Shown one piece after another: positions 2,278 through 38,329 of a DNA stretch of 44,185 bases (its first letter is position 1; the number at the start of each line of letters is the position of its first letter). The position numbers were made by a program, and so were the translations under genes. The notes under the pieces were generated by a model. That model saw only the letters and a program-made list of their open reading frames with translations. It was not told the origin of the DNA and searched no databases. The stretch comes from a virus. The stretch lies in IMG/VR virus record IMGVR_UViG_3300025120_000124, positions 1-44,185 of that record. One strand, written 5' to 3'.

Positions 2278-3152
2278 TGGCAACAACGACTTTGGCTTAC
2301 TCAACCACGGGGGACTACTGGAAGACGCGATATAGCTTTGCTCCCAGTTGCTACGGGTATATAGACAACCGACTCATCTCGTGCAACATAAACGCGGGGT
2401 CGCAGGCTTGGCTTCACTCCTCTACCACTCAGAAATGTAATTTTTACGGGGGGAGTTTTCCATTGACCATTACTTTTGCTAGCAACGAGAACCCGTCAGC
2501 AAACAAGTTCTTTAAGAACATATCCGTGGAGGGTGATTACGACGACTGGAACTGTACGCTATCGACGTACTCTGACTCCAACGTGCAGGCTGAAAGACAA
2601 CTTACGTTTATCTCTGGGGCTTCTTTTTCTAGAAGGGAGGGTACCTCGCACACTGACATACCTAGGTCCGCTCAGAACTCTACGAATAACATTAAGTATG
2701 TTGGTAGGAGGGCTGATGATCAGAGTCTAGTAGAGAATTATAACGTTCTCTTAGACAACATCATAGACCCATCGCCCGATCCAGGCACATCTGTAGTCGT
2801 CGCTTATGATAACGGAACGCTTATGTGTATTGTGGGTGAGGAGGTGGTTTCTTACTCTGGGCAATCAAATGCGGTGAAGATTGGGAGCGATTACTCGCCA
2901 TTAAACGATGGGCCTCGCTTGTATATTTCAAACCCCCCCGACATTGCGCCGTTCGTTAACATGAATATCTTGAGAACAGATCCTATCTTTGAGTATATGT
3001 ACGCCCTGACCCCAGCGGAGATAGATGGAGACTTTATGCGCGGAAAAGCTTGCACGATAACCATGGAGGCCCCTTCGGTTCCTAACGGTCTGGAGCTGTA
3101 TGCAGTCAATGTGGATTTTGAGTATTCCGAGCTTGATAGTAGATTAGGGTAA
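2277..3152 (+). CDS. Beta-rich virion protein, tail stabilization-like
   Basis: 291 residues with no signal peptide or membrane segment. The N-terminus (GDYWKTRYSF, then an NR-type turn) recalls, from memory, the C-terminal part of tail stabilization proteins of crAss-like and related Bacteroidota phages. I cannot verify that here. It overlaps the preceding fibre-like gene by one base and precedes inner-virion-type genes, which fits a tail or nozzle role. The specific function is inferred. Confidence 0.6.
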   Translation: MATTTLAYSTTGDYWKTRYSFAPSCYGYIDNRLISCNINAGSQAWLHSSTTQKCNFYGGSFPLTITFASNENPSANKFFKNISVEGDYDDWNCTLSTYSDSNVQAERQLTFISGASFSRREGTSHTDIPRSAQNSTNNIKYVGRRADDQSLVENYNVLLDNIIDPSPDPGTSVVVAYDNGTLMCIVGEEVVSYSGQSNAVKIGSDYSPLNDGPRLYISNPPDIAPFVNMNILRTDPIFEYMYALTPAEIDGDFMRGKACTITMEAPSVPNGLELYAVNVDFEYSELDSRLG

Positions 3153-3183
3153 TTTTCGTAAATTCGCACAATACTAAGCAACC

Positions 3184-4023
3184 ATGGGTTTTATAGCAGA
3201 TAGATTAAGAGCAAAAAGAGCTAAGGAGTACTCCAAGGACGACAAACAAAGGGCCAAGAGGGAGAGAGCTGCAGCAGAAGGGAAGCAAAAAGAATTTTAC
3301 GATGCTGAGAAAGCGGGTAAGTTTGACGCTCAAGTATCTCAAGCTCAAAGAGATCTAGCTCAAGCATCTAAGAAGCGCACAGACACCTCTGGCATAGCTG
3401 CTAGTCAGGCCATGCAGCTTAGCGCTTTATCTAGCGACCCCAGAGCCCTTGCTGCTGGAGTGGCTGGAGTTACTCAGCAGGCCAACGTAGCAAAAGAACA
3501 AGCAGCACAAAGCGACATGAAGACTGAGCTTGCCGCAGAGAGTAAGCTTGCTGGCCTTGAAGATGCCGCCCTCGCAGAGAACGTAGGGTTGGATGTAAAG
3601 CTAGCTGGCAGGAAGCTTGTGGGTGCTGAAACAGACGAGCTTATGGCTCAGCAAAACCTTAGGGCCGCACAAATGAGAGGTCGCGCTGCTGATGATGCGA
3701 AGTTTGAAGCCAACGTAGCGCTGGGTGAGTCCCTTGCCGACACAGGCCTTGGTCTCCTGGATGGGGGTTCCGCTGAAAAGGGAGCCAAGGTAAAGAAGAC
3801 TCCTGGCTCATTTAGTCACAAATCAAACCCTATCGACATCGTAAGACAGGGGGCTAAGATCGGAGAGATGACAGGAGGTGAGTATATCATAAACCCAGCA
3901 CAAGCTAAGAAGATTGATGATGCTCAACAGGCCATCTCCAAAAAGAAAAATATTACAGAGAGAGACCTCAAGCAGCTGTACAAAGCCGTAAGGAGCGTGT
4001 TCAACCAACCTCAATTTGACTAA
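3184..4023 (+). CDS. Ala/Gln-rich coiled-coil protein, candidate inner virion protein
   Basis: 279 residues, strongly helical, rich in Ala, Lys and Gln, with long predicted coiled coil over about residues 1-165. Near the C-terminus it has a GEMTGGEYIINPAQ segment, similar to a short motif seen in many phage proteins from structural modules. Its position upstream of the giant protein parallels the small internal core proteins before the large ejection proteins of podoviruses (T7 gp14-16 by analogy). The ATG at 3184 follows a 31-base gap; TAAATTCG at about 3162 is a weak promoter-like -7 element. Function is inferred from context. Confidence 0.6.
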   Translation: MGFIADRLRAKRAKEYSKDDKQRAKRERAAAEGKQKEFYDAEKAGKFDAQVSQAQRDLAQASKKRTDTSGIAASQAMQLSALSSDPRALAAGVAGVTQQANVAKEQAAQSDMKTELAAESKLAGLEDAALAENVGLDVKLAGRKLVGAETDELMAQQNLRAAQMRGRAADDAKFEANVALGESLADTGLGLLDGGSAEKGAKVKKTPGSFSHKSNPIDIVRQGAKIGEMTGGEYIINPAQAKKIDDAQQAISKKKNITERDLKQLYKAVRSVFNQPQFD

Positions 4024-5081
4024 TGTCTATTCTTGATACCACAAGTCCCAGGTCTGTAGCAAGGGACCCTCAGTCACGCGGCTTAGGCGCTGGCGGCATG
4101 GGTAGAGGCATGGTTGGCCAACAGGCTGCCATGAACCCAATGATGAATCAGAGGCGCACCAACGATAACTTCGCAGAGACCCAAGCTGAGAAAGCGCTTG
4201 AGCTTCAAAGGCAGAACGTTAAGAGGCAGCAGAAGAATCAGCAGCTTGCTAACCTTTATGGCCTTAAGTATGACAACTGGGCTGAAGCCGATGTAGAAAG
4301 ATTTGCAAAGCACAGGGATGTGTTTTCAGACAAGGTGCAAAACGGATATTATGACGAAGAGGCTGGCAATGGTGGGTACGCAAGGTTTCTAGAAGACCTA
4401 GAGGGGTTCGGTTCGACTTACGATAAGTACGCACAGGCTGGAGACAAAACTGTGATTGCTCAGAGAACAAACTTGCAGAACGCTATAGAGAACGGTATGG
4501 ACGACAACAACTTCGTTCTTACGGATGACGTTAGCAGTCTTGCTGAAAAAGACAGGATCTTTGATATGGGTGGCGTAGACACTGATGGACAGGTATTTAA
4601 TGAGGAGACCATGCAATGGGAAGGCTACTACGTAGACCTTGAGGGCGATAGGATTCCAGGGGAAGACGGAGAGTCGCAGTTTGGACCGATTCTAGACTCA
4701 CCTACACGGGGAGACAGAGGGTTGTATGCACCGTCTCTAGAGGAGAGGGGAGGCATGGCACCATCAGACGTAGCCGCGCTGTACATAGATGCGTTATTCT
4801 CTAAGGTAAACCCAATCCAAGGTGCTGGGGGTGACCTTGAAGAAACGCTGACTATGATCGAGGATCAACTTATTTCTAAGATGGAGGGTGTTGATGACCT
4901 CGGTCCTGCAGACCCACACAGAAACGCATTAAAGACTGCTGAAGACGAGTTTGGAGACAATCAGCCCGTTGATGATGTTAACGCTCTTTCAGAGTACGCC
5001 AAAAAAGTTAAAGAGCAATTAAGACTAATGTATACCAATAAGACTGAGGCTGTTGACCCTTACAACCCAGCAAATAGATAA
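4023..5081 (+). CDS. Candidate inner virion protein
   Basis: 352 residues, not recognised as a family. The N-terminal 45 residues are Gly/Met/Asn-rich and look disordered, followed by a charged helical segment (about 50-85) and an acidic C-terminal two thirds. It overlaps the preceding stop (TAATG) and is followed two bases after its own stop by the giant gene, so the three genes are probably translated together. By position it may be an inner core or ejection protein, but no motif proves that. Confidence 0.55.
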   Translation: MSILDTTSPRSVARDPQSRGLGAGGMGRGMVGQQAAMNPMMNQRRTNDNFAETQAEKALELQRQNVKRQQKNQQLANLYGLKYDNWAEADVERFAKHRDVFSDKVQNGYYDEEAGNGGYARFLEDLEGFGSTYDKYAQAGDKTVIAQRTNLQNAIENGMDDNNFVLTDDVSSLAEKDRIFDMGGVDTDGQVFNEETMQWEGYYVDLEGDRIPGEDGESQFGPILDSPTRGDRGLYAPSLEERGGMAPSDVAALYIDALFSKVNPIQGAGGDLEETLTMIEDQLISKMEGVDDLGPADPHRNALKTAEDEFGDNQPVDDVNALSEYAKKVKEQLRLMYTNKTEAVDPYNPANR

Positions 5082-5083
5082 GC

Positions 5084-8000
5084 ATGAACGAAGAGAACAC
5101 ACAAGTGGAAAATCAAGAAGAGCAGAGTTTTGTTGACGAGCTGTACACTTCACTTCAAGGAGAAGAAAGGGGCTGGGACAAAGATTTGTTTGCTGAAAGA
5201 GTCTCTGGTGACCAGGAGTACAACGACAAGATCTACGGTCTTCTTGGTGAGCAAGACTTTACGCAGGAAGATTTTCAATATGCTACAGGCATAAAAAAAA
5301 AAGAAGAGCCAGAGGATTCCTCAGGACAAAACTTAGAGTCTCTTTCCGATTTGAACGCGGAGCAGTTGGCATCCTTTTTTCCAGAGGGGACGCCAGAGTA
5401 TATGTTGGATATATACGCGACTTCGTATGACTTCGAAGAAGATGACTTTGACGAGCAGGTCGTAGCGCAGTATCAAACGTCTTTGGATAAGATGCTGCGA
5501 GAGCAGAACCCATCTATCTACGACTCTTATCAAGGCATACCTGTAAGCGACCTTCAAGGAGCGCAAAAGACCGCCTACGAAACCGCGCTTGGCTCTTATG
5601 AAAGTGAAGCCACTAAAGACATACTGACTAGCGGTAGCAAGAAGCGTGAGCTACAGCTCATGGAGGAAGAGAGGTTCAAGGAGTCTATCGTAGCTGCTGA
5701 GGATATAAAAAACGAGACGGGATACAACGTTCGCTCAGCGGGCATGGACCTATCTAAAAGGGCTCAGGAAGAGCACAGGGCCTTCGTAGAGTCTACGATC
5801 TCTGGAGAAGATTACAAGAACTTCGTTAAGGCAGACCTGGATGCTGCTCAGCCGTACATGAGCTTCGACGCTCAGGGTAAGCCTCTGGCTGAAGACGATC
5901 CCAACAGGACGGTTTTTATCCCTGTAGACGCAGCCAAGAAGTTTAGCGCGTCAGGATCATTTAAGTATGCTGGGAAAGGAGATAGCCATAGAGCTGTAAG
6001 ATACAGCGGAGACTACGACGCTGTAACTTCGCAATCTATGAACAACAACGGGATTCAAACATCCGTTGATGGCATAACCATGAAGGCTTCGGAGTGGAAG
6101 AAGATAGTTCAAAACTCCGCTTTAAAAAACGTCAACGAAAAGTTTCAGGGCGAGAGCCTTGCTGCAATGAAACAAGAAGTTCTTGACTCACTGGAGGAAG
6201 GCTTAGCCGATGATAATGAGGTGTTGGAAACGCTCGATGACTATTTCTTTAATCAATTTGGACTCAACCTGAATCTTGACGGTGACGGAAGGTACAATGA
6301 GGCTTGGTTGATTTCAGATATGGCTAGAGGTCTCTATCAAGGAGGGGTGGATCTGCTGTCAAACCCAGTAGAGTACCTAGTTGCAAGTGTCTCCGACGTT
6401 GTTACTGGAAACAACACTGAAGAGAAAGTTCGACGCATGAACGCTCTTGACGCAGAGGAGGTTAGAGGTAATATGACTGTTGTGCCTAAAGGCATTGGTG
6501 AGTCGTTTGGGGATGGGGATATATATAATGGGTTCAGACAATCCGCTGTAGGACTAGCAGAGACGCTACCTACTGTTGGCCTTGTGGTTGCTTCTTCAGC
6601 GCTTGGTGTGCCTATGGTTGGAACGGCAATGCTAGGTGTATCATCTGGTGTCAACGCCTGGAGTGACTCAAAGAATGAGGACGACACATTGATTGCGCTA
6701 GGCAAGTCCCCCATCTATGAAAACGAGATGCAGAGGCTTGGGGCATCTGTTCTAACGGGTGGAACTGAAGCTGGATTTGCGCTTGTAGGTAGCGCCATCT
6801 TCAGCAGAGCAGCACTTAGCGCGTCAAGCGCATACTCTGGTGCGTCAACCCTAGCCAAAGCACAGGGCCGAGCCATGACAAAAGAGATGGCCAAGGGCTT
6901 TCTTAAGCACTATGGACTATCAGCAGGAACAGAGGGATTGGAGGAGCTAGCTACAACCGCCGTTCAGATGGTTGGTAGTGCATACATTTCAGGAAGGTCT
7001 ATAGATACCGATGAGCTTGTAAACGGGATGGTTGATTCATTCATCGTGGGTGCGTTGGCTGGTGGTGTGTTTGAATACTCTGGTAGTAAGTTTGGTCAGG
7101 CGAGAGCAGCCATGAACGCTCGCGGAGACATGTCCAACCTCCAAGCAGAATCAGAGGCACGCTCAATCGTTAGAGGCCTTGAGGCTCAGATTCAACAAGC
7201 AGAGCCAGGATCCAAAGAAAGAAAAGGATTAGAGGCACAGCTGACTGGCGTTCAGTCTAACCTGGCTAAAAGAAACGCATCTAGGCAGCCGTTCTACGAC
7301 ATGCTTGCTGTAAGACACCCCAGTGAACTTAACAATGTCTCTGAGCTTGACATTAAAATTGAGCACGCTTACAGACAGTTTGAGTCTTCTACAAACGCAG
7401 AGCAACAGGCAATACACAAAGCTACCTTTGATCAGCTAGTAATCGAGAGATCAGAGATAACAGGTAAGTTTTCACAAGAGTCTACAGAGTTAACACAAGA
7501 GGAGCAAGACGTAGCCACCAACATGCTGCGTTCATCGGTAGAGACATCACTTGTGTCAGAGGCTCAGATGGCTCAGAACGCTGTGGAGATACTAGAAGAA
7601 AGAATTGCCAATGGGCAGTCGGTTTCTCCTGTTTCTTTGAGGGAGGCTAGGGCGGCAGCAAATGACGCACAAGCAAAGAGCGAGAACGCCCAGACCGCAA
7701 AGAACAGACTAAAAGAGGCAGAACAGCTTCTCGCAGAGTCAGTTACAGACGAGTCTTTGGCTGAGGTAGAGCGAGCAACAGCAAGTCTAAACGATGCTCT
7801 CGGCATGGCACAGAACAGAAGCGGAGATGTAACGGCTGCTGCTGATATGATCAGAGATAGGGTGATGGACTCTAAGGCCAGAGGGACCGATTCCTGGGTT
7901 ACGGATGCAGTATCCAACATGGATAACTCTTCGTTGTCTCAAACTCAGATTGATCAGATCTTCGAGTCAGACAACTTTGCTATGCTTACGGCAGAGAACC

Positions 8001-11000
8001 CATATGGAAAAGCTGAGCTGAGCGACAAAGAGAATGCAGAGAGAAACGAGAAGGCTAAGAAATACCTTGAAGAGCAGGGTCTTACGTTCCACGAAATCAA
8101 GGGCAAGTACAAGAATGGAGAGAATAGCTTCTTGGTTGAGGGCATGACAGTTGAGCAGTCCGCTGAGTTTGCTAAGATCTTTGAGCAAGAGAGCGTAGCT
8201 CACAAAAACGGCCTCGTAAAAGGTGACGGCAAGATCAACCTCTTTGAAGGGGGCGTAGAGAAGAACGACGCTGCTACTGACTTCTTTAGTGCCATCAAAG
8301 ACGCCGAGGGTAACGTTGTTAAGTTCGGGATGACACCTGGCGCTACATACCAAGACTCAAAAGGAAAGACAATTACCAAAGACGAGTACACTGAGGGCAA
8401 CAATGTCGTTGTAAGCGGCAAGGATTCAAAAGGCGTTGAGGGCAGATTCACTGACTTTAGTAGTGATCCTGACGCTGGAATGGAGATTCCTGACGATGCC
8501 CTTAGCGGACTCAATCAGAAGCAAAGAACGTTTTTGAGAAACGCAATGGAGTCTTTGAGAAAGATCCACCCAGGACTTACTCTCAGGATGCACGATAAGG
8601 CATCTATGGATGCATTTCAAAGTGACGCAGGAGGGTATTGGGATGGTCAGATGATGCACATATCTGTGGACAACATCTTGAGCAACATGGATTCAGAAGT
8701 TGAGTTTCTTGGAAAGGTGAAGACTTTTGAGGAGACTGTTTTGGAGGAGGTGATACACTCAGCTATAAGCCCTATGCTTGAAACCATGGGGCCAGCTGGA
8801 AGATCTCGACTTCTAAATGATCTTGAAGCTATCGTCAAGAAGGATGTTAGCCTTAGACAAAGAGCCGCCACCAAAGAAAGAAGCGAAAAGCAAAGACTTC
8901 TTGCTGACGGATACACTGAGGTTCAGGCTGAAGCTATTGCTGCTGACGAAAGGATTACTGAGCTCATCTCGGCTATCGCTTCAAACTCAGATGCTCTTAA
9001 CATAGGAACAGTTCAAAAGTGGAGGTTGTGGTTGAATAAGCTTATGAAGCCAACCAACAAAGGATTTGTTATTTCATCTGACAGTTCAGCATTAAGCATC
9101 GCAAATGCATTCTCAAATGCTGTTGCTGATGGGTCTCACGTATCTGTACAAAGCAGAGTCGTAAAAGGCGACGCTGGTCGAGCATCTGCAAAGATGATGA
9201 GACCACAAGACCTTCCTATGGATGAGAAGTTTGAGGTGTCTTACTGGCGGGCTAGTTCGTACACGGGAATATCAAAGCTTCAGACAGCTACGTTTAATGG
9301 CAAGTGGCACTTTATCAACACTTGGAACCAACGAACCCTTGGGGGGTCCATGGCAGATAAGATGAGTGGTGTTGAGTTCGTTTCTGGGCCTAACAAAGGC
9401 ACACGCATTGACGCTGATCAGATGGCTAACTGGAACCTCAAGAAGCCAATGACGAGGGGTGATAAAATGGCTGCAGATCAAAAGAAAAGAACAGGCCTCA
9501 TAGTAGCGGGGAACACTCTGCTTGACAAGGTGCAGCAGCTCAGAAAGAAAGAGGAGGGTGCAGACTACGTTCCGTACATGACATCTAGTGAAGCCAAGAT
9601 TTTGGAGGCTCTTGATATTGAAGTGGATGAAAACAACCCACGACAGTTTAGAACCCTTACCGAGGAGCAGCTTAGAGACGCGGAGTCGATTTTGTTTGGA
9701 GACGCTCAGGCTAAAGAAAGGGGAAGGGCGTCAAACAAATTAAATTCTAAAGGCGAAACAATCAGTGAGGAATTTAAGAGGAAGAGAGCTGAAGGGGTTA
9801 AAAGAAGTTCCAGATCTGCTATTGAGATTTTTATTGACGAAGAAAGAGAAAACATAAGAAGAGGGGAAGGAAGAGCGTCAAACAAGATAAGCGACGAGCT
9901 GCGCAATCGCCCAGGGGTTGTGGAGGATTCTGTTCGAAAAAAGGCTGAAGATTTTTCTAAAGCTTACGGACTCACAAAGGAGGAGTTTGAGCAGATGCTA
10001 AAGAGTTCAAAGGCTACGATGTATCATTTAGCGACGGCGGAAAGCGTAGCCGAAATAAATCAAGCCTATGCCGATGTTCATGGCAAGGAAATCAGATTCC
10101 AAGACCTATCTTCTGCTGAAAAGCTTAAGATGTTTCAAGAGGATGATGCCGTGAAAGAGACCATAGTCAGAGCGATGACAGACGACATTGAATACTCGCT
10201 TAAAATGATGGAGGATGAGGGCTATGAGAATCCAGAAAACTTTTTTAAGGAATACGAAGCGGCAAAGGGTGAGTTCTTAACTGAGCTTTCTGGATTGTTT
10301 TCAAATATTGCTGTGGAGCAGTTCTCCCCTGTATTTGACACCATCGTGGCCGCTACGTCACCAGGAATGGCGGCAAAGGGTAACATGATCATGGCGATGA
10401 ATATCTTCCATAACGCATTAGTTTCTTACAAAAGAAACTACACGCCAGGCAAACCCTTTGACTTTATACCAAAGGACTTGATTAGTGAATTTAAGGAAAA
10501 GTCTGGTGGAAGGTATCGGGAAATGATTAGCGCTACAGGAAGAACAATACCAACAATAGGGACGACTCTTGAGTCAGTCAATAGTCTGTTCAATAGATAC
10601 CTAAGCGAAGATGGTCAGTTTAACGCTGATGGCTTCATGAATGATATGAGTCAAAGAGGGGAAAAGAAAAGAGACCTTCCAGTTATGGCTGACGAGATGT
10701 CCACTAGGTCTATGGGTGCACCTAAAATTGGCTCTTTTGCTGTAACGATGTTTGGCGACGTAGGGTCAAATTTCTTGACGCAAGACATACACCTTATGGA
10801 CCAACTTGGTGTGTTTACTGGAGAGATGGGCTTACCCCGTGGAGCCACTATTTCACTAAACAGGGCCAAGGTCGTGGAGCTTCTAAACAAGGTCAACCCT
10901 AAAGACAGAAAAGGCCTTAGAAACAAAACAATTTTTCAAGAGCTGCATGACTTAGCACAAGACGAGTCTGCTACTCCAACGCAACGGAATAGAGCCAAGG

Positions 11001-14000
11001 AGATGATAGTTAGGGTTCACTCACCTATGGAGGGCAGAAAAATGGATCCAGATTCAAAAAAACTTAGATACGAGGTGGTAAAAGCGCTTGTTGACGCTCA
11101 CAACAGAAACCCCAAAAATAAGGACAACCAGTACGTTGTGGCTCAAGTTGGGCAAATGTATTATGCCTTTAATCAGGTTATGGCTTATAGGTTAAATGAT
11201 GGCGGCAAGATGAAAAGAAAGCCATACACCCCTTGGCATCCCTTGATGAGGCAGGTTATGCAAGAGGGGTCTTACAAAAACCTTAGCAAAGCCCTCATGC
11301 CGATTGACTCGCCATATTCCGTTGCAATAGACATCACAGCTCAGCAAGTAGAGGCCACTGGCGGCAAGATCAGCAGACAGCAGGAGATGGAGATGGAGGG
11401 GCGAGCGTCTAGCAAATTAAGGCAGTTGGAGTTTGACTTCTTTAACGACAACGACCTCAAGGTGAATGCATTGGATTCAAAGTTGTACAGAGATAGAGCT
11501 CCAGAGGAGGCGCTTCAAATCAAAGGGGGCGGCTTGATTACCAACGAGATAACTAACCAAGCTCTAAGCACTGACGCAGCTTCACGAAGAGTCATGGGTA
11601 AAGGCAAGAGCCCTGCACCTGGAGACAAGGTTGGTATTAGGCTGAACCTCAATGTGTTAAAGAACACAGGGGTGCCAGTGCAGACGATACACGACAAGAC
11701 AGCCACGGGTGAGGCGCTTCAATATGCTCCTGTTGTTCGTGTAAGCAACGTAAACCTCAACGTAAATCAAAACGCTAGAAACAAGATTGTAACCTTCCAG
11801 GAGAATAAGTTCCCAATGGCCAGTGTCGATGGAGAGCTGGTAAGCACCAACATGGATGAGATTTCATACGAAGGCGTCAAGGCTGTGTTCAATCCGTTCA
11901 AACACAACACGTTTGTAGATGTAGCGGGGAGACCGATTAAGTCAGCCGAAGGCGCTGTTGTGGTTGGTAGCAACGTTTACCTCACTGGTAAGATCGAATA
12001 CCTCGATTACAGCGACCCTGTTGTTGAGGCGGGTAGAGGAGAGACCGAAGCTCAAAGAGCTAAGCGCGTCAAGCGAGGCCCGAAGTATGATGCTGCTGTA
12101 AGGAGGTTCAGGGCTTACTCAGAGGCTGCCCTTGGTGTAAAGTACAATAGTGTGGAGCAGGCTGAGGCAGCTTACAACGACATGGATGTAACCTCTCAGG
12201 TTGCTCTGGACAAGTCAGAGGTAGCAGCTAACGCAGAAGAAGCTATTAAGCAGGGTAGGGCATCAGCTAGAATCAGACAGACGGCTGGAAGGACCGCCAC
12301 CTTGTACGACAATGTAAGGAATGAGATCCTGGGTAATCCAGAGAACTATATCTCGCAGCAAAACATCAAGGACTCAAGAGACAAACTGTCTTCTATGGCG
12401 ACTGGGGATCTGATGGAGATCATGACAGACGAGGCTATAGGTAGGTTGTCCCAGAGGAATGACGACATGGGTGTGCTTGCAGGCATCGAGCTCATTAACA
12501 GAGCCGTTGCAGAAGGTAACGCAGAAGCCATCCCGTCTATCATCTCTGAGCTGTCTAAGATTGGAACCACGGCTGGACGCCTTTTAAGGCACTTTGCTGA
12601 GCTTAAGTCGTCAACTCCAGCTGGAATGGTCATGATGATCGAGAAAGCTGTTGAGAACGGCGGTAATACGCTCTCAGACACGCAGAAGCAAAAGCTAGTT
12701 GACTTGTCTGCAAAGATGATGGAAGCGAACGCCAAGGTAAGAAAGCTCATGGAGCAAGGCATCCGAGGTGAAGACGTCGATGCTGAGCTGGAGGCTGAAG
12801 TAAAGCGGCTCAAGGAGGTCGAGAAAAATTTAGAGACCTTTACAAACGCTGTAATTGAAAGAGGCTGGGGTTCTATTGGGTCTATGCTTATTCAGGGTAA
12901 TCTTCTGACCCCTATGTCTCAGATCACAAACGTCGTAGCAAACCTTTACAACGCTGCGCTCATGCTTCCAAGAGATATCATAGCGCTACCAATAGAAAGG
13001 CTCGTAAATGTATTTGGGTACGATTCACCAATGAAAAGAAACTACTCTGTCAATGCATACATGTATGGGCTAAGAAAGTTTGGTGCGGGATTTGTTGAGT
13101 CGTTGGAAGCGGTTGTCACTGGCCAGGAGAAAGACGTAACTGAGTGGAGAATACACAGAGGGTTTGCACCTTTTAGATCTCTTATGTCAGCGTTTGGAAA
13201 GGGAGAGGAACTGCCTCTAGGTCCTGACGGCAAGGCTAGCATGAGTCAAAGATCTAAGCTTTTTATCCAGGGGACCCTGGGTATCCCAGCAGAGACTATG
13301 TTTAGGTTCTTGGGTGTTGGTGACACCCCGTTCAGAAGAGGAGTTGAAGGGATAGAAGTTTACCAAGAGGCGCTTGCCAGAGGGCTCAAGGGTGAGGAAC
13401 TTTCAAGGTTTCTCAAGCACCCACCAATGAATGTAAGAGAGCGGGCTGAGTCAGAGGGAAGAAAGCTTACGTTCCAAGAGCAAGGTGTAGCTTCAGAGCT
13501 AGGAGAAGGGTTTGTAAACTTTGTTCAGAAGTCAGCAGGCAGGATATTTAACTTCCTTCCAGGTGTCAACGGCCAGGAGTTTGCTAAGTTCTTGGTTCGC
13601 AGCCAGATGCCTTATGTCAGAACTCCAGCTAACATTTTGTACGAGACGCTTACGTTTACTTCACCTGTGATTGCGATCCCAAGAATGATGTCTGATCTTA
13701 AAAGAGGAGACTCTAGGTCAGCAGCACAAAACATGGGGAAGCTCATCATGGGCCAGAGTGTGGCTTACGCAGCTGAGATATTCATCAGAGAGGGTATCAT
13801 ATCTGGTGCTCTTGAGATTGGTGATGACGAAGAAAGAAACATGGCTTACGATCAGTTTCCTCCAAACTCTGTAAACATATCAGCGCTGAAGAGATTTATG
13901 TCTGGTGGTACAGCTTCAAAGCAAGCAGACGACTACTTCATGAGCTATCAAAAGCTCGGTATATTCGGTGCTATCATAGGAGCTAGGGTAAAAGCTACCA

Positions 14001-14938
14001 GTGCCTCAGACCCAGGACTAGGCGAGGATCCGTTTATTGCGAATAGAATGGTTCGGGATGCATTTGGTGTTACCGCTTTCAGCACCATGGCACACATGAT
14101 GGACCAAAGCTTTTTGCAAGGGGTAAGCAGCTTTACTGAGTTGCTGTCCGCTGGAGATGCTGACGACTTCGAGAGAAAGTTTGAAAGATGGGCTTCATCC
14201 ACTTTCTCGGCTGTATCTTCAACCGTTCTGCCAAACACGCTATCTGCCCTGTACAAGCAGGATAGAGAGTACCTTCCAGACACAAGGGTATCTAAGGACA
14301 AACCGCTGGAAGAGAGGATCATGCAGAGGTTCAGATACACGCTGCTGGACAGAACGTTTAATCTTGGTGACGCCCCAATCAGAGTGAACTGGAAGGGCGA
14401 GCCTATCAGACAGAAGCCTACAGGCGCTATCCCTGGGGGGTACTACCTGTTCGATGTGTTCAAAGCAAGACAGGGTGAAGCCGATGAAGTTTCTAACGAG
14501 GTGTGGAGGCTGTATGAGCAGACAGAAGAGCTCACAAAGGCCTGCGGTACACCGTACTTTGCTACCACTAGAAAGATGGCACCACCTAAGATTAAAACCA
14601 AGAAAGAAAAAGCTGCTCTTGCTGCAATCGGAAGAGACTACACGTTCCTAAACGACGCAGACTTCATGAGTGGCAAGGTAAGGTTCTCCATCGAAGACAT
14701 CAACGAGCTTGCACGTATTGCCAACTCAGCTAGATACGAGGCGCTCCTCGACCTTACCCGATCAGAAGGTTATGCTGGAATGGATGACTCGGATAAGCTT
14801 GAGGCCATGAATAAGATTGGTGATTCATTCAACGGACTTAAAGAGTTTGGTGAAGACAGGATGTTTAAAGAACACACTATCAAGGTGTTAGATATAATGC
14901 AAAAAATATATGATAATGAGCGACAAGAAGAAAATTAA
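5084..14938 (+). CDS. Giant polyvalent inner virion protein (3284 residues)
   Basis: One uninterrupted frame of 9.9 kb. Visible segments: an acidic N-terminus; hydrophobic Gly/Ala stretches at about residues 496-523 and 619-668 (EGLEELATTAVQ is typical of phage large polyvalent proteins); a long coiled-coil region at about 770-940; an ETVLEEVIHSAI helix at 1217-1228 that resembles a zincin helix but lacks the first His; and a C-terminal region from about 2590 (QGNLLTPMSQITNVVANLY) like the large-polyvalent-protein-associated domain common at phage C-termini. The motif GRAS[ANS][KR][MLI] occurs five times (1365, 1547, 1596, 2106, 2391). The size and place fit a DNA-ejection protein carried in the capsid, possibly with enzymatic domains; this role is inferred. 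Confidence 0.8.
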   Translation: MNEENTQVENQEEQSFVDELYTSLQGEERGWDKDLFAERVSGDQEYNDKIYGLLGEQDFTQEDFQYATGIKKKEEPEDSSGQNLESLSDLNAEQLASFFPEGTPEYMLDIYATSYDFEEDDFDEQVVAQYQTSLDKMLREQNPSIYDSYQGIPVSDLQGAQKTAYETALGSYESEATKDILTSGSKKRELQLMEEERFKESIVAAEDIKNETGYNVRSAGMDLSKRAQEEHRAFVESTISGEDYKNFVKADLDAAQPYMSFDAQGKPLAEDDPNRTVFIPVDAAKKFSASGSFKYAGKGDSHRAVRYSGDYDAVTSQSMNNNGIQTSVDGITMKASEWKKIVQNSALKNVNEKFQGESLAAMKQEVLDSLEEGLADDNEVLETLDDYFFNQFGLNLNLDGDGRYNEAWLISDMARGLYQGGVDLLSNPVEYLVASVSDVVTGNNTEEKVRRMNALDAEEVRGNMTVVPKGIGESFGDGDIYNGFRQSAVGLAETLPTVGLVVASSALGVPMVGTAMLGVSSGVNAWSDSKNEDDTLIALGKSPIYENEMQRLGASVLTGGTEAGFALVGSAIFSRAALSASSAYSGASTLAKAQGRAMTKEMAKGFLKHYGLSAGTEGLEELATTAVQMVGSAYISGRSIDTDELVNGMVDSFIVGALAGGVFEYSGSKFGQARAAMNARGDMSNLQAESEARSIVRGLEAQIQQAEPGSKERKGLEAQLTGVQSNLAKRNASRQPFYDMLAVRHPSELNNVSELDIKIEHAYRQFESSTNAEQQAIHKATFDQLVIERSEITGKFSQESTELTQEEQDVATNMLRSSVETSLVSEAQMAQNAVEILEERIANGQSVSPVSLREARAAANDAQAKSENAQTAKNRLKEAEQLLAESVTDESLAEVERATASLNDALGMAQNRSGDVTAAADMIRDRVMDSKARGTDSWVTDAVSNMDNSSLSQTQIDQIFESDNFAMLTAENPYGKAELSDKENAERNEKAKKYLEEQGLTFHEIKGKYKNGENSFLVEGMTVEQSAEFAKIFEQESVAHKNGLVKGDGKINLFEGGVEKNDAATDFFSAIKDAEGNVVKFGMTPGATYQDSKGKTITKDEYTEGNNVVVSGKDSKGVEGRFTDFSSDPDAGMEIPDDALSGLNQKQRTFLRNAMESLRKIHPGLTLRMHDKASMDAFQSDAGGYWDGQMMHISVDNILSNMDSEVEFLGKVKTFEETVLEEVIHSAISPMLETMGPAGRSRLLNDLEAIVKKDVSLRQRAATKERSEKQRLLADGYTEVQAEAIAADERITELISAIASNSDALNIGTVQKWRLWLNKLMKPTNKGFVISSDSSALSIANAFSNAVADGSHVSVQSRVVKGDAGRASAKMMRPQDLPMDEKFEVSYWRASSYTGISKLQTATFNGKWHFINTWNQRTLGGSMADKMSGVEFVSGPNKGTRIDADQMANWNLKKPMTRGDKMAADQKKRTGLIVAGNTLLDKVQQLRKKEEGADYVPYMTSSEAKILEALDIEVDENNPRQFRTLTEEQLRDAESILFGDAQAKERGRASNKLNSKGETISEEFKRKRAEGVKRSSRSAIEIFIDEERENIRRGEGRASNKISDELRNRPGVVEDSVRKKAEDFSKAYGLTKEEFEQMLKSSKATMYHLATAESVAEINQAYADVHGKEIRFQDLSSAEKLKMFQEDDAVKETIVRAMTDDIEYSLKMMEDEGYENPENFFKEYEAAKGEFLTELSGLFSNIAVEQFSPVFDTIVAATSPGMAAKGNMIMAMNIFHNALVSYKRNYTPGKPFDFIPKDLISEFKEKSGGRYREMISATGRTIPTIGTTLESVNSLFNRYLSEDGQFNADGFMNDMSQRGEKKRDLPVMADEMSTRSMGAPKIGSFAVTMFGDVGSNFLTQDIHLMDQLGVFTGEMGLPRGATISLNRAKVVELLNKVNPKDRKGLRNKTIFQELHDLAQDESATPTQRNRAKEMIVRVHSPMEGRKMDPDSKKLRYEVVKALVDAHNRNPKNKDNQYVVAQVGQMYYAFNQVMAYRLNDGGKMKRKPYTPWHPLMRQVMQEGSYKNLSKALMPIDSPYSVAIDITAQQVEATGGKISRQQEMEMEGRASSKLRQLEFDFFNDNDLKVNALDSKLYRDRAPEEALQIKGGGLITNEITNQALSTDAASRRVMGKGKSPAPGDKVGIRLNLNVLKNTGVPVQTIHDKTATGEALQYAPVVRVSNVNLNVNQNARNKIVTFQENKFPMASVDGELVSTNMDEISYEGVKAVFNPFKHNTFVDVAGRPIKSAEGAVVVGSNVYLTGKIEYLDYSDPVVEAGRGETEAQRAKRVKRGPKYDAAVRRFRAYSEAALGVKYNSVEQAEAAYNDMDVTSQVALDKSEVAANAEEAIKQGRASARIRQTAGRTATLYDNVRNEILGNPENYISQQNIKDSRDKLSSMATGDLMEIMTDEAIGRLSQRNDDMGVLAGIELINRAVAEGNAEAIPSIISELSKIGTTAGRLLRHFAELKSSTPAGMVMMIEKAVENGGNTLSDTQKQKLVDLSAKMMEANAKVRKLMEQGIRGEDVDAELEAEVKRLKEVEKNLETFTNAVIERGWGSIGSMLIQGNLLTPMSQITNVVANLYNAALMLPRDIIALPIERLVNVFGYDSPMKRNYSVNAYMYGLRKFGAGFVESLEAVVTGQEKDVTEWRIHRGFAPFRSLMSAFGKGEELPLGPDGKASMSQRSKLFIQGTLGIPAETMFRFLGVGDTPFRRGVEGIEVYQEALARGLKGEELSRFLKHPPMNVRERAESEGRKLTFQEQGVASELGEGFVNFVQKSAGRIFNFLPGVNGQEFAKFLVRSQMPYVRTPANILYETLTFTSPVIAIPRMMSDLKRGDSRSAAQNMGKLIMGQSVAYAAEIFIREGIISGALEIGDDEERNMAYDQFPPNSVNISALKRFMSGGTASKQADDYFMSYQKLGIFGAIIGARVKATSASDPGLGEDPFIANRMVRDAFGVTAFSTMAHMMDQSFLQGVSSFTELLSAGDADDFERKFERWASSTFSAVSSTVLPNTLSALYKQDREYLPDTRVSKDKPLEERIMQRFRYTLLDRTFNLGDAPIRVNWKGEPIRQKPTGAIPGGYYLFDVFKARQGEADEVSNEVWRLYEQTEELTKACGTPYFATTRKMAPPKIKTKKEKAALAAIGRDYTFLNDADFMSGKVRFSIEDINELARIANSARYEALLDLTRSEGYAGMDDSDKLEAMNKIGDSFNGLKEFGEDRMFKEHTIKVLDIMQKIYDNERQEEN

Positions 14939-15511: not shown

Positions 15512-16059
15512 TGGCTGTACGCAAGACAGCAAAGGGCATGGCGCTAAAGCGCTGGTTCAAGGAGAAGTGGACGACCCCCAGAGGCAAGAAGGGGTACAGC
15601 GGCAGCGATCGCACCTTCCGCCCTACTGTTCGCGTATCAAAAGACACACCGTCTACATGGAGTGAGCTGTCTCCTTCTGAAAAGGCTAGAGCTGCAAAGG
15701 AAAAGAAGCAGAAGGGCAGGGTGTCTCGCTACAAAAAGAAAAAGAAGGCTATGGAAGGTATGAAAGTCATGAAGAAGGGTGGTAGAACCCAGACGATGCC
15801 CAAGATGAAGATGGGGGTTCACAAGAGCAGAAAGGGTGGACTCACAGCAGCTGGTGTGGCTGCATACAGAAGAGCCAACCCAGGGAGCAAGCTTAAGACA
15901 GCCGTGACCACCAAGCCATCAAAGCTCAAGGCTGGCAGTAAGGCGGCCAAAAGACGCAAATCTTTCTGCGCTCGCATGAGTGGCATGAAGGGGCCAATGA
16001 AAAAGCCAAACGGCAAACCAACACGCAAGGCTCTGGCACTTAGGAAGTGGAACTGCTAG
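15511..16059 (+). CDS. Lys/Arg-rich phage protein, DUF6321-like C-terminus
   Basis: 182 residues, extremely basic. The N-terminus (LKRWFKEKW, then KGYSGSDRTFRP) resembles a small phage domain of the DUF5872 type. The C-terminal 75 residues (GGLTAAGVAAYRRANPG, RRKSFCARMSGMKG, RKALALRKWNC) match the widespread phage module I recall as DUF6321. A MKKGGRTQ segment repeats the GG-basic motif seen in other late proteins. It ends the rightward block and faces the leftward operon. A nucleic-acid-binding virion role is plausible from charge only. Confidence 0.75.
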   Translation: MAVRKTAKGMALKRWFKEKWTTPRGKKGYSGSDRTFRPTVRVSKDTPSTWSELSPSEKARAAKEKKQKGRVSRYKKKKKAMEGMKVMKKGGRTQTMPKMKMGVHKSRKGGLTAAGVAAYRRANPGSKLKTAVTTKPSKLKAGSKAAKRRKSFCARMSGMKGPMKKPNGKPTRKALALRKWNC

Positions 16060-16061
16060 GT

Positions 16062-16137
16062 CGTCTGGGTGGGGCTTGAACCCACATGTAACCAATTACC
16101 CTTTCTACAAGGTATAAGCTTGAGGGGATACCAGACG
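16062..16137 (-). tRNA. tRNA-like element without a D arm (76 bases)
   Basis: Read on the minus strand there is a perfect 7-bp acceptor-type stem (16131-16137 with 16062-16068, CGTCTGG/CCAGACG), a TA at positions 8-9, and a perfect 5-bp T arm with loop TTCAAGC at 16069-16085. Between them a 6-bp hairpin TACCTT/AGGGTA with loop GTAGAA stands where the anticodon arm belongs, with a six-base loop instead of seven. I find no D arm. A CCA end is not encoded (ACCT follows). It may be a degenerate tRNA, a tRNA mimic or an RNA 3'-end element. No amino acid is assigned. Confidence 0.45.
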
Positions 16138-35538: not shown

Positions 35539-37296
35539 ATGTTTAATTTAAGATTCATTTATTTCATACTCATCACCTTATGGTTTGTGCAGCTAGATGA
35601 GATGTTTGGGCAAGAGTGCCAGATTATGCACACCAAGTCTCAGGTTATGGGGCTTCAAAAGAAATTCGACTTAACCCTTGAAGATGTAGAGGTTCAGACC
35701 CTACCCATTGTGTTTCATGTTGTACATACTGGAGCGGGTGAACCCAACAATATTTCTGATGAGCAGATACTGTCTCAGGTGGATGTGCTGAACGAAGAGT
35801 TCTCTGACAGCAAGATTCAGTTCTGCATGGCTGTGCGTGATCCTGATGGAAATCCCACAAATGGTATCACTCGATACGACGCTAGCTGGAACGAGGACTA
35901 CGTGACTGGAGGCATAGGCAACACCCCTTCGAATATTGATCCAGTAGGATGGGAGCAGACAGAACTCAAGTCAGCTGCAGGTTGTTGGAATCCTAACGAG
36001 TACATCAACTACTATGTGGTATCAGAGATCAACGACAATAACGGGAACAACGGGGTACAAGGTTTCGCATACTTAGGCCCAACAGGTGATTGCAGGGACG
36101 GGGTGGTTGTACTATACAACGCTACAGGTACGGTTGGAGTACAGAAACCAGGAAGGACGTTGGGGTTTACAGGGGTTCACGAAGTGGGGCACCACCTTTC
36201 TTTGTGGCATACGTTCTCCAACACATCCTCATGCACTTCAGAAAGTAACTGTGAGTCTCAAGGGGATCAAGTATGTGACACTCCAACCACCCTCTCTAAC
36301 TCAACAGCTCAATGTGACGGTGGTGTATGTCCAGGCGCTTTGGTAAACAACTTTATGGATTATACCTCTGAGACCTGTAAGGACGCATTTACTGTGGGGC
36401 AGGCTGAGCGTATGCACGAGATGCTTCAGGGCAGCAGACAGGGCCTTGTAGACAACCTAGCTTGTGTGCCTGTCGTAGACTTCGATGTGACTGCTGGGGC
36501 TGCTTACTATCAACAAGAGTGGTGCACTCCATATCAAGACATTTGGGTTGACGTAATCAATCAAGGCACGCAGACCATTCCGCTTGTAGATGTAGAGATG
36601 TTTTGCAACGGGCCGCAGGAAGTGATTTCTTTGTATGATCTACAACCTGGATCTACTCAGGTATTCTTTGAGGCGGTATACGTAGAGGGTGCAGAGGAGT
36701 TTACCGTTCAAACAATCTCCAGCCTTGATCAGTTTGCAGACAACGACGCATCTTGGTGGGCTTTAGACATAATAGAAGGCGACCTTATGGAAGTATGGGT
36801 GACTCCCGATGTTTTTGGCAACGAGACGTCTTGGGAGCTGAGAGACAGCGATGATGAGGTTTTGCTGTCTGATGGAGGATACGGAACGAGCAGCAATGAA
36901 ACCTTCTACTACTCCGCCTGTATCTTTGATGACTGCTATGTATTTGAGATAGAAGATACTGCAGGAGATGGCTTCTGTACGGTTGATTTTGACAATGATG
37001 GGGTTTGTGATATTGGAGGCGATGGAGTCCTTGCTACCGTGGGGCTTGATACTCTAGTAAACACAGGCTTCGGCCTTCAGTTCTCTGTCATTGAGTTTGA
37101 GTTCTGTAACTCACTGTCTCAGTGCAATATGGACTACAATGGTGACGGATACATAGGCAATACCGACGTCCTTGAGTTGCTTGTAGATATGGGATGCCTT
37201 GGTGCATGCTATACCGATCCAAACGATGACAATGTTGTAAATATCCAAGACCTGCTGCTGATGTTGGCAAGTACTGGCCCATGCCCTAAGGAATGA
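35539..37296 (+). CDS. Secreted M43 pappalysin-type metalloprotease with dockerin-like tail
   Basis: 585 residues. N-terminal signal peptide (FIYFILITLWFVQ, cleavage near GQ). The prodomain lead-in PIVFHVVHTG and SDEQILSQVDVLNEEF is the M43 pattern. Zinc site HEVGHHLSLWH at 214-224 and Met-turn NFMDY at 271-275 complete the catalytic set. After a beta-rich middle, the C-terminus has two dockerin-like loops (DYNGDGYIGNTDVLELL and DPNDDNVVNIQDLLLML). It should act outside the cytoplasm on proteins. It overlaps the next gene by four bases. A phage role is unusual: virion-borne depolymerase or host-surface modifier are both possible. Confidence 0.85.
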   Translation: MFNLRFIYFILITLWFVQLDEMFGQECQIMHTKSQVMGLQKKFDLTLEDVEVQTLPIVFHVVHTGAGEPNNISDEQILSQVDVLNEEFSDSKIQFCMAVRDPDGNPTNGITRYDASWNEDYVTGGIGNTPSNIDPVGWEQTELKSAAGCWNPNEYINYYVVSEINDNNGNNGVQGFAYLGPTGDCRDGVVVLYNATGTVGVQKPGRTLGFTGVHEVGHHLSLWHTFSNTSSCTSESNCESQGDQVCDTPTTLSNSTAQCDGGVCPGALVNNFMDYTSETCKDAFTVGQAERMHEMLQGSRQGLVDNLACVPVVDFDVTAGAAYYQQEWCTPYQDIWVDVINQGTQTIPLVDVEMFCNGPQEVISLYDLQPGSTQVFFEAVYVEGAEEFTVQTISSLDQFADNDASWWALDIIEGDLMEVWVTPDVFGNETSWELRDSDDEVLLSDGGYGTSSNETFYYSACIFDDCYVFEIEDTAGDGFCTVDFDNDGVCDIGGDGVLATVGLDTLVNTGFGLQFSVIEFEFCNSLSQCNMDYNGDGYIGNTDVLELLVDMGCLGACYTDPNDDNVVNIQDLLLMLASTGPCPKE

Positions 37297-38225
37297 AAAA
37301 ACTTATCTTCTTCCTCATACCTCTGCTCAGCTACGGGCAGTGTGACATAGAGATCTTAGGGTTCGATCCTATATCTACTGACATCATGATGGTTGTTAAC
37401 GGAGGTGCATGCTGCACTGAGTCTGACAGCATTGGAGAGTTTATCCTAGCCCTTGGCTTCAACCCTCCTCAAGACGAGAGTCCTTGGCCTTGCTTTCAAG
37501 GTGACTGGATGCTGTTGCTCTACCCTCTAGACTTTCCTGGTTTTGAGATGGGGCAGGGCCCCGACAACATCTTCCAGGCTGGAGACACCATAGCCTTTAA
37601 TATTGTCGAAGACACGCCTTTGGCTGGAAGCGGCACACTACAATGCTGGGTGCAAGCTCTTCAGGAAGGTATATTCATGGAAGACTGCATGGTCATCACG
37701 GTCTGGCAGATCAACGACAGTGAGACGTTAGACGGTAGCAGCGCAGGCATTGCAGGTTGCGACTACCCAGACGAGAACATACCGAACAGTTGGTTGGAGT
37801 TTTCTATGGAGGCCGACTGTGGACCTCCTCCGCCTCCCGTGCCTAACGAACCACAGCCTTGGGAGCCTGTAGAAACAACGGACACAACAGACACATATGG
37901 ACCTCCACCACCTGAGCCACCCAACGTAGACGACTGCAAGGACCCGTGCATATACGTATCCAACGTATTTACCCCTAACGGTGACTACGTGAACGATACG
38001 TGGAGGCCTGTTACAAAGCCTGATTGTTGGTGGAAGTGGGAGTGTAGGGTTTACAACCGATGGGGTGCTGTAGTGTGGGAGAGCTATGACCCCCGTGACA
38101 AGTGGTTGGGAGATGGAGGCCTTGCCTATGTGCCCGACGGTGTTTACCTATGGACGATCAGGGGGACCACCTATAGATCAACTAAGGTTGTCAGCATGCA
38201 AGGACATGTAACATTGTTTAGATAG
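37293..38225 (+). CDS. Secreted protein with T9SS type B (CHU_C) sorting domain
   Basis: 310 residues. Signal peptide MKKLIFFLIPLLSYGQ, a Cys-containing beta domain (about 17-176), a Pro-rich linker (177-212), and a C-terminal domain of about 90 residues with VFTPNGDYVNDTW, VYNRWGAVVWES and YVPDGVYLWTI, the gliding-motility-associated CHU_C pattern used as a type IX secretion signal in Bacteroidota. It is coupled to the metalloprotease gene by an ATGA overlap. The signal is clear; whether the phage uses it for export to the host surface or as a virion domain is inferred. Confidence 0.85.
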   Translation: MKKLIFFLIPLLSYGQCDIEILGFDPISTDIMMVVNGGACCTESDSIGEFILALGFNPPQDESPWPCFQGDWMLLLYPLDFPGFEMGQGPDNIFQAGDTIAFNIVEDTPLAGSGTLQCWVQALQEGIFMEDCMVITVWQINDSETLDGSSAGIAGCDYPDENIPNSWLEFSMEADCGPPPPPVPNEPQPWEPVETTDTTDTYGPPPPEPPNVDDCKDPCIYVSNVFTPNGDYVNDTWRPVTKPDCWWKWECRVYNRWGAVVWESYDPRDKWLGDGGLAYVPDGVYLWTIRGTTYRSTKVVSMQGHVTLFR

Positions 38226-38236
38226 TCCTTACCTTT

Positions 38237-38310
38237 GCCCCTGTAGCTCAGTTGGATAGAGCAACGCACTTCTAATGCGTAGGTCATAGGTTCGAATCCT
38301 ATCAGGGGTA
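38237..38310 (+). tRNA. tRNA-Arg (anticodon TCT)
   Basis: Complete cloverleaf: acceptor GCCCCTG/CAGGGGT (7 bp), TA, D arm GCTC/GAGC, anticodon arm ACGCA-CTTCTAA-TGCGT giving anticodon TCT (Arg, AGA), T arm ATAGG-TTCGAAT-CCTAT, discriminator A. CCA is not encoded, as is common in Bacteroidota. It lies between the T9SS-type gene and a microprotein gene before the terminase. Confidence 0.95.
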
Positions 38311-38329
38311 CTAAATTAAATTTAAAACA

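Follow-up and report, generated by a model that had tools for sequence, protein, structure and literature searches.

Lineage-Specific Tags at the Borders of Folded Blocks in a Giant Phage Protein: Candidate Recognition Sites for a Single Phage-Encoded Factor

A Repeated Heptad in the Giant ORF

The window analyzed here, that is, the whole 44,185-nt stretch of virus record IMGVR_UViG_3300025120_000124, contains a giant ORF (5084–14938, + strand) encoding a protein of 3284 aa (363 kDa), and the question raised by this locus is why one short heptad recurs along the protein and what might act on it. The pattern GRAS[ANS][KR][MLI] was found in exactly five copies, beginning at residues 1365, 1547, 1596, 2106, and 2391, precisely where the first-pass annotation had placed them; a further RAS at residue 1389 is outside the pattern. 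These copies, called tags below, and a weak candidate for a sixth are as follows (pLDDT values are from the AlphaFold models of the giant protein):

9176–9196, + strand: tag 1, GRASAKM (residues 1365–1371), conserved in relatives; pLDDT < 50 gap at 1353–1369, with the zincin-like block on one side and the next folded block on the other in the AlphaFold model
9722–9742, + strand: tag 2, GRASNKL (residues 1547–1553), within the pLDDT < 50 stretch 1541–1645
9869–9889, + strand: tag 3, GRASNKI (residues 1596–1602), within the same stretch as tag 2; special to the lineage of the window
11399–11419, + strand: tag 4, GRASSKL (residues 2106–2112), conserved; pLDDT < 50 in both models (stretch 2092–2130)
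12254–12274, + strand: tag 5, GRASARI (residues 2391–2397), where an ordered block ends, at the start of the pLDDT < 50 stretch 2390–2430
9803–9820, + strand: possible degenerate sixth tag, RSSRSA(I) (from residue 1574), weak, aligning with the true site RASDSL of relative L010

GRAS is the sole 4-mer of the protein above two copies, every other 4-mer occurring at most twice. From the composition of the protein, 0.105 copies of GRAS and 0.00045 copies of the heptad were expected, and in 2000 shuffles of the giant the heptad occurred 0.001 times on average, with a maximum of one. Since the motif was chosen post hoc, its rarity is less extreme than these raw figures: 20 shuffled proteins were each searched for their best gapped pattern, and the GRAS pattern barely surpassed these (log score of −17.1 versus −16.0). 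By itself, and given this choice of motif, the repetition barely exceeds the best found in shuffled proteins, and relatives were therefore sought.

Position of the Tags Between Predicted Folded Blocks

Two AlphaFold models of the giant protein had mean pLDDT values of 68 and 63 and modest pTM values of 0.47 and 0.35. The following parts were delimited:

7985–8197, + strand: DUF3293 domain (residues 968–1038; Pfam PF11697, E-value = 1 × 10−9)
8441–9139, + strand: zincin-like block (residues ~1120–1352; BLAST to the elemo giant)
9191–9703, + strand: folded block between tags 1 and 2 (residues ~1370–1540; AlphaFold model)
10019–11356, + strand: helical block between tags 3 and 4 (residues ~1646–2091; AlphaFold model)
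11447–12250, + strand: beta-rich block between tags 4 and 5 (residues ~2122–2389; pLDDT mostly 75–89)
Residues 2204–2299, + strand: L5 gp82-like domain inside the beta-rich block (Pfam PF25735, E-value = 9 × 10−9)
12374–14935, + strand: helical C-terminal part (residues ~2431–3284; predicted fold matching those of internal virion proteins and of polyvalent proteins)

All five tags lie in the stretches with pLDDT < 50 that separate the folded blocks, while about 20–23% of all ten-residue blocks fall below this value and low pLDDT may in part reflect variable alignment columns; tag 5 is located within a low-confidence predicted helix. The borders that the first-pass annotation had called apparent are therefore borders in the models as well, and none of the tags was found inside a compact domain. 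The beta-rich block had a predicted-fold match to a free-standing phage protein of 135 aa, and the C-terminal part had a weak BLAST match (E-value = 2 × 10−3) to internal virion protein D of Roseobacter phage CRP-403. Foldseek comparison of the models with the PDB gave no informative match, and profile searches of PDB sequences gave no match.

Conservation of the Tags in Related Giants

Searches of phage records with the motif-bearing stretches of the giant yielded no match; since nothing was obtained for these stretches and one weak match for the C-terminal part, conservation was tested on viral contigs. A genome-contig search revealed no relative, and neither a cultured phage carrying this tag nor virion proteomics for this lineage was found. 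The giants of relatives were gathered stepwise from related viral contigs and represent about 20 distinct lineages, in which a tag is located at four shared borders (~1365, ~1545, ~2106, and ~2391 in window residue numbering), the flanking linkers diverging. These four orthologous borders keep the tag down to an overall identity of about 33%; the heptad proposed from the window is thus kept in homologs. At border 5, [RKM]A[SA] was present in 20 of 20 lineages, at border 2 RAS, KAS, or RAA was present in 14 of 20, and most lineages had close variants of [RKM]A[SA] at borders 1, 2, and 4. The conservation of R, A, and S at sites 1 and 4 was 0.55–0.75 versus mostly 0.15–0.35 for the preceding residues. 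The heptad itself needs restating: five copies stand, but the conserved core is [RKM]-[AS]-[SA]-x-x-hydrophobic, of which G is not a part.

The 80% relative L001 carries GRSSGRL, ERASLRL, GRASSRL, and GRASARI, and the segment with tag 3 is absent from it. The giant of L010 (3106 aa), whose C-terminal part is 54% identical to that of the window and whose remaining parts are barely alignable, contains RAS four times, each at a border. Tags at single sites were degraded or missing in some relatives (site 2 in L034 and L044), and site 4 was shifted in L016/L019. The pattern R[AS]S-x-x-hydrophobic was absent from all other window proteins examined, from the real-looking ORFs of two relatives except for one recombinase-like ORF of L024, and from the head proteins of L022, L023, and L025, where the substrate set of a prohead protease would be expected to carry it.

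Concerted Variation of the Tag Letters

Within a genome, the tags resemble each other: they read GRASx[KR] in the window, xRAS in L010, and ERA[SA] in L030; KAS was found at three sites in L029 and likewise in L037, DRAS at four in L032, ERAA at three in L035 and L043, and ERSA[LIV] at three in L016, while L044 has EMAS at three sites and one extra copy, EMASDSL. Agreement was counted on heptads registered by hand and compared with shuffling in which genomes were permuted within each site, which removes relatedness only in part; at position −1, 36 of 66 within-genome pairs agreed versus 11.1 after shuffling. With these same caveats, a stricter table of 16 lineages, in which degenerate letters were entered at orthologous places, gave 335 agreements versus 252.1 (maximum of 280; none of the 5000 shuffles reached the observed value), or 214 versus 160.2 (maximum of 184) with one lineage per close pair. 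The excess was present in clade I alone (199 versus 164.5, maximum of 189) and was weaker in clade II alone (136 versus 122.2, with 7 of 5000 shuffles reaching the observed value). Tag position +1 is free, whereas +2 and +3 are correlated. In L032, D is present at all four sites, whereas its relatives L030 and L033 have E; this is a parallel change, since L032 is nested among E-bearing relatives in the tree of the C-terminal part.

These data bear on the origin of the repeat. Chance would be favored by the post hoc choice of the motif and by its score, which is only slightly above the best pattern of shuffled proteins; however, the tags are conserved and change in concert in relatives, and the pattern was also met in L069 and L077, sequences fetched after it had been formulated. 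A chance origin, already called unlikely in the first-pass annotation, is refuted by the relatives and retains hardly any probability, the decisive support coming from conservation and co-variation and not from the count of copies.

A remnant of a recent DNA duplication, or a signal for recombination where modules join, would agree with the shuffling of modules by the giants at these places and with the 18 of 21 bases shared by tags 2 and 3, but the other tag pairs share only 10–16 of 21 bases and use different codons, and we regard this origin as highly improbable. Since the codons of the tags differ between sites in the window, and likewise in L032, L030, and L044, selection acts on the protein and not on a DNA repeat, and a DNA-repeat origin was rejected on these codon differences. 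A structural preference of linkers or helix caps, with no recognizer involved, would account for the finding that all tags are in linkers or at helix ends; nevertheless, it does not account for the joint change of letters at four distant sites between relatives (G, D, E, K, EM) and is very unlikely. The concerted letters strongly support a single trans-acting recognizer, and one recognizer drifting together with its sites is the economical reading.

Genome Context of the Giant Protein

By TerL and portal protein, the window groups with phage elemo of Flavobacterium and Cellulophaga phages phi18:3 and phi38:1, crAss-like phages being more distant. Among the large genes of the head operon in these phages, the last encodes a giant with a virion structural annotation, and the same operon position is occupied by gp123 of phi18:3 (virion annotation from MS/MS) and gp21 of elemo (annotated as virion structural). 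Predicted-fold matches of two models were to large polyvalent, ART-PolyVal, MuF C-terminal, and internal virion proteins. Because of this operon position in these phages and these predicted-fold matches, the window giant is most likely an ejected polyvalent-type virion protein, both its presence in the virion and its ejection being deduced in this way. The genes directly before it may belong to the same process:

3184–5081, + strand: two genes upstream of the giant (279 and 352 aa), probable ejection partners judged by position

In VvAW1 and BA3, a gene annotated as 'DNA ejection' is located two genes before the giant.

Other features of the window were also recorded. A gene for a secreted M43 pappalysin-like metallopeptidase and one for a CHU_C protein with a type IX secretion signal were found at 35539–38225, and an M43 gene or Por_Secre_tail protein was also present in relatives (L023, 6716–8629; L010, 12365–14596); these M43, CHU_C/type IX signal, and Por_Secre_tail genes suggest that the phage produces cargo for type IX secretion and that its host belongs to Bacteroidota. 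The tail-region protein encoded at 16–2277 is adhesin-like, with repeats GCTDPxAxNYDPxAxxDDGSC and EF-hand/dockerin-like matches. Two tRNA genes were predicted, namely, tRNA-Leu (caa) at 16018–16114 (− strand) and tRNA-Arg (tct) at 38237–38311 (+ strand).

The Zincin-like Domain and the Probable Role of the Tags

The zincin-like block contains EEVIH at residues 1221–1225 (window 8744–8758). EExxH was present in 26 of 26 family members, and the zinc-binding motif HExxH of zincin metallopeptidases was found in none of the 26. The giant of elemo (3695 aa) shares DUF3293 and the zincin-like stretch (E-value ~1 × 10−21), its motif there being HEIFH. The invariant EExxH in place of HExxH is an unusual, conserved change of the active site, and its presence in all family members makes catalysis by the zincin-like domain doubtful.

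The tags are probably recognition sites in a modular, polyprotein-like giant that is presumably ejected; a single phage-encoded factor would read them, and most likely they are cut. One such factor would act at every border; it would most likely be a peptidase that cuts the giant into functional units, either in the maturing head or after ejection, and the zincin-like domain of the same chain is the candidate cutter. Cutting at all window tags would release fragments of approximately 149, 21, 6, 58, 31, and 99 kDa. The recognizer is probably encoded by the phage, since close relatives differ in the tag. With the tag essentially confined to the giant among the proteins examined, a general prohead protease is an unlikely candidate, and the recognizer may reside in the giant itself.

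Docking, in which the tags would be bound and not cut by one phage partner, is the less probable use of the sites. Candidates for such a partner are a chaperone, an ejection protein, and the zincin-like domain in the role of a pseudo-peptidase; by binding, the partner might hold the modules in a threaded state during packaging or transit through the tail. Concerted letters suit any single recognizer, EExxH speaks against ordinary zincin catalysis, and two probable ejection partner genes lie directly upstream; however, a partner need not occupy all borders and borders alone, and the tags match the limits of excisable modules, including those in unrelated giants. Cleavage is favored here as no more than the probable function, and docking is rated as rather unlikely, because EExxH makes catalysis doubtful and because N4 vRNAP has an HExxH zincin domain and yet is packaged unprocessed (PMC5512222). 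The cleavage-or-docking proposal in the first-pass annotation is thus supported in part: conservation and linker position agree with it and the concerted letters point to a single recognizer, while the peptidase-like domain that might do the cutting is without the first His of HExxH.

Cleavage would also agree with the features of polyprotein sites seen here, namely, a short motif shared by several borders, with conserved positions and letters co-varying within genomes. A true phage polyprotein of about 3000 aa, ejected and cut internally at least four times by its own EExxH metallopeptidase domain under a drifting code, is a possibility that we put forward tentatively. The code would read GRAS, DRAS, EMAS, KAS, ERAA, or ERSA in this family, whereas other families would use EASxRG or R[LYF]SGR, and the protease and all its sites would co-evolve.

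Tags in Other Families of Giants

The giant of L048 and its near copy L047 have only the gp82-like domain in common with the window giant. EASxRG occurs four times in this giant (residues 581–1793 in L048), and the gp82-like domain of L048 is enclosed by EASSRG at 1584 and EASARG at 1793, as it is by tags 4 and 5 in the window. In L052, [RQ][LYF]SGR was found five times (residues 918–2505), and a segment of L030 from the DUF3293 position is found again in L052, directly before QYSGR. L046 contains [QE]FS[VL]S three times, one copy being just before its gp82-like domain, and the more distant L092, L093, and L097 have [MK]FS-hydrophobic near possible sites 1, 2, and 4, at approximate positions.

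In L054–L063, giants of cultured proteobacterial, cyanobacterial, and Bacillus phages that share the C-terminal region of L052, no comparable repeated tag was found, so a tag of this kind is not universal to polyvalent proteins, within a small sample of giants without this zincin-like domain. The giants of Pachyviridae, Pervagoviridae, and elemo also had no repeated tag, that of elemo despite a zincin domain with HExxH. Planktothrix phage Pag-Yong1 (L058) has a large polyvalent protein with ESAR at 1094, 1298, 1515, and 1887, which is borderline relative to shuffles.

Comparison with Known Systems and Significance

Like the polyvalent proteins described by Iyer et al. in 2017 (PMC5512222; LPD38 and zincin MPTase architectures), the window protein would be an ejected multidomain giant with a zincin-like domain, and its DUF3293, zincin-like, gp82-like, and helical C-terminal parts may be of disparate kinds. 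It differs from them in its EExxH motif and in having no Pfam LPD family: no LPD domain was matched in the giants of the window, L010, and L044, whereas LPD38 is present in the tagged giants L048 and L052. The N4 virion RNA polymerase gp50 (PMC12633501) is similar in being an ejected protein of about 3500 aa, in which an HExxH zincin domain precedes an extensive helical C-terminal region, but no polymerase domain was recognized in the window. The prohead protease gp245 of SPN3US (PMC10052503) cuts after AXE and likewise represents one protease with a short motif at several sites of internal head proteins; however, prohead protease systems cut several head proteins at N-terminal propeptides, whereas the window tag is essentially limited to one protein and to internal borders. 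The T7-type internal virion protein D (gp16) of CRP-403, the weak C-terminal match, is an annotated protein of about 1220 aa without repeated tags.

Self-processing of phage polyvalent proteins by a zincin domain was predicted earlier (PMC5512222), and term searches of the text of that work found no border tag described. Although polyvalent proteins are known and have been supposed to process themselves, no earlier description of a co-evolving, lineage-specific border tag in them was found in the openly licensed literature searched.

Giant ejected proteins are among the largest phage proteins and have to be packed into the head and passed through a narrow tail; their predicted self-processing has so far been without an assigned site. 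A co-varying border tag would provide a prediction, readable from sequence, of where giants are cut or held, and it lets their modules be delimited without structures.
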